Assembly (NCBI GenBank): GCA_903900845.1 | Contig: CAIUOU010000017.1 | Location: 1 to 64,000 of the forward strand | Direction: 5' to 3' | DNA: 64,000 nucleotides | Source of the DNA: an uncultured Opitutia bacterium | GTDB taxonomy: Bacteria; Verrucomicrobiota; Verrucomicrobiia; Opitutales; Opitutaceae | Shown here: positions 40,370-42,114 of the stretch, one piece after another | Layout: each line of letters starts with the position of its first letter | Numbering within the stretch: position 1 is the first letter of the stretch | Translations under genes and position numbers: made by a program | Notes under the pieces: model-generated | The model's database searches: none | What the model saw: the letters and a program-made list of their open reading frames with translations, nothing else | What the model was told of the DNA's origin: nothing

Positions 40370-40501
40370 CACGTCGCGTCTCCGCCGAAACCGAATCTTC
40401 TCAGTTACCTCCGATTTCCCCGGTTGGCGGGCTTGGACCAGGAGGAAACCGCGGCCGCGGCGATCGAACTTCTCGGTTTCCCTGAGTCTTCCCGTACTCC
40501 C

Positions 40502-40582
40502 CCCAAAGGGGTCAGGGCGTTTTTTGTTTAAAGCAACGCTGCTTCACTCGGGCGGAAAACATTTAACGCCCTGACCCCTTTT
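40502..40582. repeat. Palindromic element copy 1 (also a likely terminator)
   Basis: AAAGGGGTCAGGGCGTT (40505-40521) / AACGCCCTGACCCCTTT (40565-40581), perfect 17-bp arms; followed by T9 G9. Confidence 0.85.
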
Positions 40583-40596
40583 TTTTTGGGGGGGGG

Positions 40597-41370
40597 TCAG
40601 CGGCGCTGCCGCAACAACCACGCGTAAAGCTCCGGGTTGTCGTAGGTCACCGTCCACGAGTCGTGCTTCGCTTCGGGATAGACGGTGAACTGCACGCGGG
40701 GCACGCCGGCCTTGCGCAAGGCCGCGACCATGACCTCCGACTCGTCCACGGCGACGGTCGGATCCATCGCGCCATGGTACGCCCAGACGTTGAGCTCCTT
40801 GAGCTCCGCCGGCCGGTTCCGCACCATACGGCGCACGGCGGAAAGATCGCCGCCGCCGCAGATCGGCACGACCGAGGCGAAGCGGGTAGGATTCTTCACG
40901 GCGATGCTCCACGTCCCGTAGCCGCCCATGCTCAGGCCGGTGAGGTGCACGCGCGCCGGATCGACGCGGTGCCGCGTGGCAATCTCGTCCGCAAGGGCCA
41001 GCACCGCCTCGTCGTCCCACCACGTGCCCGTCGGGCATTGGGGCGAGACCACGATGAACTCCGCGGCGAGCACGCGCGCCGCCTCCGCGGCCGGGCCTTC
41101 GGCCGCCGGGGTGCGCAGAAGCTTGGGCGGGCCGTGCTTCGCGACGAGCCACGGATCATCGCCACGCTCGCCGGAACCGTGCAGGAAGACGATCAGCGGC
41201 CAGAGGCGGGCGGCGTCGGCTCCGTGCTCCGGGGGCAGGTGCAGCAGGTAGCGGTAACCGACCTCGCGGGAGATGGTATGCTTGAAAGTCTGCGCCGTCA
41301 GGGTGTCGGCGGCGTTGGACGCCACTGAACACAGGATGGCGACGGCGAGGGACAGGAGCGGGGATTTCAT
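40597..41370 (-). CDS. Secreted alpha/beta hydrolase (prolyl oligopeptidase/esterase-like)
   Basis: Signal peptide; WPLIVFLHGSGERGDDP, HLTGLSMGGYGTWSIAVKNP (GLSMGG nucleophile elbow), YPEAKHDSWTVTY. Confidence 0.88.
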   Translation of the reverse strand: MKSPLLSLAVAILCSVASNAADTLTAQTFKHTISREVGYRYLLHLPPEHGADAARLWPLIVFLHGSGERGDDPWLVAKHGPPKLLRTPAAEGPAAEAARVLAAEFIVVSPQCPTGTWWDDEAVLALADEIATRHRVDPARVHLTGLSMGGYGTWSIAVKNPTRFASVVPICGGGDLSAVRRMVRNRPAELKELNVWAYHGAMDPTVAVDESEVMVAALRKAGVPRVQFTVYPEAKHDSWTVTYDNPELYAWLLRQRR

Positions 41371-41380
41371 GCGGCGCCCG

Positions 41381-41459
41381 CCCAAAGGGGTCAGGGCGTT
41401 TTTTGTTTAAAGCACCGCCGCCTCACCCGGGCGGCAAACGTTTAACGCCCTGACCCTTT
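41381..41459. repeat. Palindromic element copy 2
   Basis: AAAGGGGTCAGGGCGTT (41384-41400) / AACGCCCTGACCCTTT (41444-41459); 6 substitutions and 1 indel versus copy 1, same orientation. Confidence 0.85.
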
Positions 41460-41493: not shown

Positions 41494-42114
41494 TCACGTC
41501 CCGTAGAGGCGGTCGCCGAAATCGCCGAGTCCGGGCAGGATGTACTTCCGGTCATTGAGCCCGCGGTCGAGCGCGGCGGTATAGATCACCGTGCCGGGGT
41601 GCTGCCGCTCCACCTCAGCGACGCCCTCCGGGGCGCTCACGATCGCCACCAAGCGCACGTCCGTGGCGCCGTGATCGCGCACGACGCGAATCGCCTGCGC
41701 GGCCGAGCCGCCGGTCGCGAGCATGGGATCGATCACGAAAACGTGACGGCCAGCCACCGGCGGCAGCTTGCAATAATAACTCCTCGCCTGCGCCGTCTCG
41801 TGGTCCCGCTCGAGGCCGACGTAGCCGACGCTGACATCAGGAAACAGGTCCGTGAACGGCTGCACCATGCCCAGCCCGGCCCGCAACACCGGCACCACGA
41901 CGAGCGGCTGGCGCCCGAGCACGCGGGCGCGCGTGGTCTCGAGCGGCGTGACGATCTCCCGCTCCTCCGTCTCGAGGTCGCGCGTCGCCTCGATCGCGAG
42001 GAGGGTGGTGAGCTGGTGCGCAAGCGCGCGGAAAGTCGCCGGTTTCGTCGAGCGGTCCCGCAGGTGGGCGACGAGATGGCCGGCAAGAGGATGATCAAGG
42101 ACGCGGAGGGGCAT
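41494..42114 (-). CDS. upp: Uracil phosphoribosyltransferase
   Basis: MPLRVLDHPLAGHLVAHLRDRSTKPATFRALAHQLTTLLAIEATRDL, VVVPVLRAGLGMVQPF, FVIDPMLATGGSAAQAI. Confidence 0.95.
   Translation of the reverse strand: MPLRVLDHPLAGHLVAHLRDRSTKPATFRALAHQLTTLLAIEATRDLETEEREIVTPLETTRARVLGRQPLVVVPVLRAGLGMVQPFTDLFPDVSVGYVGLERDHETAQARSYYCKLPPVAGRHVFVIDPMLATGGSAAQAIRVVRDHGATDVRLVAIVSAPEGVAEVERQHPGTVIYTAALDRGLNDRKYILPGLGDFGDRLYGT

Follow-up and report, generated by a model that had tools for sequence, protein, structure and literature searches.

TIRYTs are terminal-inverted-repeat-associated Y1/HuH tyrosine transposases, the ends of IS200/IS605 elements are asymmetric subterminal hairpins, and HuH transposition is not known to produce target-site duplications. 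TIRYTs or TIRtrons were named in 2013 (the term is rare in the literature searched) and are Y1 transposases flanked by GGGGWSAS terminal inverted repeats, some of them with dispersed families of these repeats (Di Nocera et al. 2013, PMC3733652). TnpA-Y1 subclass 2.1, with the motif GGGG[AT][CG]A[CG] and an expected C-terminal HTH extension (Bac_DnaA_C/HTH_23/HTH_28), probably corresponds to TIRYTs (PMC6006769). Novelty of the inverted ends around subclass 2.1 transposases was considered at first and then dropped, since both sources already describe such ends. Here we describe a family of short hairpin elements in an uncultured Opitutia bacterium, and consider it very likely that the two copies found around a hydrolase gene are short non-autonomous (REPIN/MITE-like) derivatives of a TIRYT-type transposon that inserted twice beside that gene. 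The observation holds up, but what it reveals is of an ordinary sort: a TIRYT-type family, which makes a good new example of something little studied.

The window, by which we mean the whole 64,000-nucleotide stretch of DNA analysed, contains two palindromic elements in direct orientation (40499-40580 and 41378-41459, 879 bp from start to start; Table 1). They are 90% identical without gaps, and coordinates and alignment confirm the initial annotation of two such elements around a single hydrolase gene, differing by 6 substitutions and one indel (a missing C, by eye). It was also right that the window holds no further copies, as the exact core GGGTCAGGGCG occurs four times, always within these two elements. 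The spacing it gave stands in part: the hydrolase ATG lies about 14 bp from copy 2 (13 bp in the annotation), but the other end of the gene does not abut copy 1, from which it is about 15 bp away. Trimmed to their conserved ends, the copies span about 75 bp each and have the same architecture: the left end AAGGGGTCAGGGCGTT is followed by four variable bases and GTTT, then by an interior and the mirror image of the left side; counted between two 18-nt ends, the interior is 35 nt long. Folded as a single strand, each copy gives a strong hairpin whichever strand is taken (z between -4.1 and -6.2 relative to dinucleotide shuffles), and the plus strand of copy 1 runs into a T9 tract. Copy 2 sits inside an otherwise tight upp-hydrolase pair, and copy 1 lies behind the hydrolase gene, on which a TonB-dependent receptor gene converges from that side.

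Table 1. Elements and neighbouring genes at the window locus (window positions)
Feature	Position	Strand	Remarks
Element copy 1 (AAGGGGTCAGGGCGTT...AACGCCCTGACCCCTT)	40506..40580	+	Convergent gap between TonB-dependent receptor gene and hydrolase gene
Copy 1, left terminal inverted repeat	40506..40529	+	AAGGGGTCAGGGCGTT TTTT GTTT
Copy 1, right terminal inverted repeat	40557..40580	-	Minus-strand reading AAGGGGTCAGGGCGTT AAAT GTTT
Element copy 2	41385..41459	+	Gap between upp and hydrolase gene; right end 1 base off consensus
Copy 2, left terminal inverted repeat	41385..41408	+	
Copy 2, right terminal inverted repeat	41436..41459	-	One base off consensus
Alpha/beta hydrolase gene (Peptidase_S9/esterase-like)	40597..41370	-	Resident; outside the elements
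upp, uracil phosphoribosyltransferase	41494..42114	-	Ancestral upstream neighbour of the hydrolase gene
Penicillin-amidase-like large ORF			Precedes the hydrolase gene along with upp; named by sequence look only

A single gene bracketed by direct repeats could be a cassette that moves, or can be excised, as a single unit of about 960 bp, as was initially proposed. Gene gain or loss from element to element can indeed occur, since our genome (G000) has one lone element at C83:41791 (L048 4992-5047) where its sister species G038 has an element, a TonB receptor gene (1059 aa) and a second element (C6, L186, 5865-9387). This gene loss or gain between elements is the nearest approach to the cassette idea, but at another locus. 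At the window locus, the hydrolase gene directly follows upp across a short, element-free gap in three same-genus genomes (G002, G023 and G024), in which the end sequence GGGGTCAGGGCGTT has zero occurrences genome-wide, and match coordinates place the two genes equally close in a fourth (G039). Thus, the hydrolase gene did not come in with the elements but is an old resident beside upp, and the element-gene-element arrangement is not a cassette but a resident gene with an element inserted on either side. In composite transposons and gene cassettes the bracketed gene moves with its elements, whereas this one is in place without them in four relatives, and no second copy of the element-hydrolase-element unit was found in the genome. 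Synteny has therefore already largely refuted the cassette, which we regard as highly improbable. No exact empty-site junction was found for the window copies, the sister contig (G038:C508) ending inside upp, and this counts against our preferred explanation.

The two insertions belong to a family spread through the genome (4.4 Mb, 205 contigs), in which a search tolerating up to 2 mismatches found 142 half-sites, versus 1 for a reversed-pattern control. Sixty-one inverted pairs of 56-235 bp were scored in the genome stretches examined, and we estimate about 60-70 short hairpin elements in this bacterium. Paired inverted ends lie 43-60 bp apart from start to start, or further, and neighbouring elements are often grouped with gaps of 8 bp or about 16 bp. 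Within the ends, bases 1-14 (by search design) and 19-22 are nearly invariant and bases 15-18 are mostly [G/A/T][A/G/T][A/G/T][C/T]; interiors vary widely, and a C-rich lead-in and AA lie outside the ends. Pairing between left and right variable tetramers did not exceed that of shuffles, the long interiors gave a mean fold z of about 0 with two outliers when searched for structured RNA, an Rfam search of the element returned no credible match, and the papers listed by a literature search for GGGGTCAGG were unrelated. Insertion into pre-existing hairpins was also considered and rejected, the C-rich and G-rich outer flanks being complementary only as far as their composition goes.

In their interiors, the window copies are each other's best match (0.71, followed by 0.39 and 0.34, with a null of 0.12-0.16); a looser interior-related subfamily includes elements on C2, C183, C192, C152, C40 and C123. 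Several elements (on C17, C192, C123 and C105) have their closest relatives elsewhere on their own contig and in the same orientation, a pattern that points to occasional element copying, in several cases over short distances. As the window copies are mutual closest relatives, one of them probably arose locally from the other. Replication slippage or recombination could also give a second copy, which counts against our preferred explanation, and a local recombination or template-switching event with no transposase in that step would suit both the same-contig, same-orientation relatives and the C192 copies, which are alike in their flanking bases as well. The flanks of the window copies, however, have nothing in common beyond the C-rich lead-in, which indicates that no larger stretch was duplicated in tandem and makes a transposase-free origin of the second copy, in our judgement, rather doubtful.

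The tie to a Y1 transposase suspected from the outset for a REP/MITE-like family is borne out by an intact Y1_Tnp gene (P0001, C4:16598-17563) inside a unit (C4:16483-17570) that has the same ends, GGGGTCAGGGCGTT, on both sides and is flanked, at a distance of 8 bp, by another element to the left and to the right. The protein matches PF01797 (E 4e-15), and its catalytic residues, HxH and Y118-x3-N122P, are conserved in 20 homologues. It is about 320 aa long, with a C-terminal extension of about 200 aa that is common to its homologues; no HTH Pfam domain matched this extension at E<=1, and a relative with a solved structure, sought by sequence, was not found. A decayed second unit at C105 (L055 4009-4430), which is 71% identical and comprises the 3' part of the transposase gene and the same end, together with a third right end where contig C27 breaks off, suggests that the transposase unit has itself probably been copied. 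The sister species carries an intact orthologue (69% identical) on C213 between the same ends, the left one with one base changed; identities by codon position are 0.76/0.82/0.47, a pattern that indicates purifying selection on the transposase.

Among 95 homologous loci with both flanks readable, the inverted repeats around the transposase gene exceeded the 99% null at 67, of which 59 had GGGGTC, GGGTCA or GGGGTG, the hosts being mostly Verrucomicrobiota by record title. We also observed that GGGGTCA-like inverted repeats, followed by gene-specific sequence, enclose most Verrucomicrobiota Y1 homologues and a few in other phyla. Some same-genus genomes contain dozens of full or decayed transposase copies (54 matches in G024, 23 in G018, and 22 each in G003 and G016), whereas RAYTs are single-copy as reported.

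Our family resembles TIRYTs, as characterized in the published accounts, in having a HuH-Y1 transposase gene with a Y---NP motif, enclosed by GGGGWSAS terminal inverted repeats (here GGGGTCAG), and in the dispersal of the same ends through the genome as pairs and clusters. It differs from those accounts in its Opitutaceae-like genome with 61 scored short pairs, in the variable tetranucleotide at end bases 15-18, in the sister species with a switched subterminal base, and in a transposase without a recognised C-terminal HTH Pfam domain. Assignment to subclass 2.1 would therefore depend on the repeats together with the length of the C-terminal extension. REPIN/RAYT systems (Bertels and Rainey 2011, PMC3116915) are similar in their inverted conserved ends, variable loop, extragenic location, single intact family-linked transposase and clusters with back-to-back copies, but our elements have terminal repeats of 14-22 bp rather than REP hairpins, and the transposase gene lies within these ends rather than just beside them. 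Additionally, the GTAG/GTRG foot is absent from all 61 pairs, whose ends are AAGGGGTCAGGGCGTT, and the transposase scores about 61 bits (61.3) against NCBIfam REP_Tyr_transpos, below the cut-off of 80, a shortfall that also weighs against our preferred explanation. By the tag, the family is thus not RAYT/REPIN, though it looks as if it works in a similar way. Like MITEs, the elements are short and non-coding and have terminal inverted repeats in common with an autonomous element; unlike MITEs, their interiors are mostly unrelated between copies rather than a common deletion derivative, and the transposase is HuH rather than DDE. The Y1 HuH catalytic fold (PF01797) is held in common with IS200/IS605, from which the family differs in its terminal inverted repeats and in a protein of about 320 rather than about 150 aa.

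Placement of the elements is extragenic: none of 54 clusters lies inside a gene predicted from codon usage, with conserved blocks as the training set of the gene caller. Relative to element-free gaps, element-bearing gaps are enriched in convergent and depleted in divergent arrangements, and 28 of 48 clusters have a gene 3' end within 25 bp (usually at 6-18 bp), versus 17.5% under random intergenic placement. The elements may prefer to insert there, may have been selected against elsewhere, or may have a function. Some predicted genes stop inside an element (distance -18 or -2), apparently via TGA (GTTGA) or TAA (TAAGGGG).

Comparison with G038, which is about 72-90% identical in long aligned stretches and has 93 half-sites (up to 1 mismatch), reveals both stability and turnover. 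Many clusters occupy the same intergenic places in the two species, including the whole element-transposase-element arrangement, and lengths at shared sites are often nearly equal (126/125 versus 126/127; 57/194 versus 56/190). Presence also differs from site to site: the element at C4:27433 has no counterpart on G038 C418, elements on C241 and C132 are specific to G038, and at C101/C131 our genome has only a fragment, AAGGGGTCAGGG, versus a full element in G038. The sulfatase-like genes of G038 that match the C1 and C96 sites are without elements, in a gene order that differs or is broken by contig ends.

At 13 shared sites compared, all 28 end bases were identical and interiors had little or no similarity (z -0.6 to 3.2), a comparison that overestimates conservation since elements were found by their ends and the G038 contigs used were almost all element-bearing. 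Four-fold degenerate sites are 56.5% identical between the species, so DNA free of constraint has diverged widely and drift may be all that happened to the interiors, whereas the ends have not drifted. In our genome, base 15 is G, A or T (C 2%), versus C in G038 (97%), throughout the family, and such a switch at shared sites is unexpected of fixed, inert copies. Together, the identical ends and the family-wide switch of the adjacent base suggest that the ends are still recognised in trans.

Elements that stay outside genes, lie behind 3' ends and keep their ends while their interiors diverge might instead be host-maintained 3'-end signals (mRNA-end hairpins, terminators or protein-binding sites) and not mainly selfish DNA. 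The initial annotation would have taken them as just terminators had they been mostly solitary at transcript ends with no occupied/empty-site polymorphism; they do lie mostly near gene 3' ends, but occupied/empty differences between the sister species exist. Most same-genus genomes are also without elements, the association with the transposase unit is clear, no classical intrinsic terminator was called at the window elements by a scan that covers only loops of 3-8 nt, and finding elements by their ends biases the sample toward intact ones. We therefore consider host 3'-end signals an unlikely account of the family. For the two window copies themselves, the pair of terminators insulating the gene that the initial annotation gave as its alternative may apply, as the elements favour gene 3' ends, but the scan for short-loop terminators called none here. 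Conservation of the ends at shared sites nevertheless exceeds the needs of a decaying selfish element, which counts against the TIRYT-derivative explanation. Sites stay in place, the 14-bp ends are perfect, and the next base has switched family-wide alongside a diverged transposase. If the transposase or a host protein still recognises the ends in trans, this could keep them at fixed places behind genes, and the family would then be a domesticated network in which transposase and sites co-evolve, not a transposon family in decay, a reading we offer as decidedly speculative.

Under the preferred explanation, derivation from a TIRYT-type transposon, the transposase would act in trans on ends that form hairpins in single-stranded DNA, copying or moving the short elements. 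One window copy would be derived locally from its partner, and the upp-hydrolase gap would have received one of them. Both the trans action and the movement of elements are proposed here from sequence.

The 'repeat-gene-repeat' layout of this locus is a warning that such an arrangement need not mean a cassette. Besides an intact transposase unit, the genome has about 60 short derivatives and can be compared with a sister species; ends of the GGGGTCA type also surround most of the homologous transposases tested, mainly in Verrucomicrobiota. The family provides a concrete set of substrates for biochemical work and makes it possible to ask whether transposases of this sort are domesticated.
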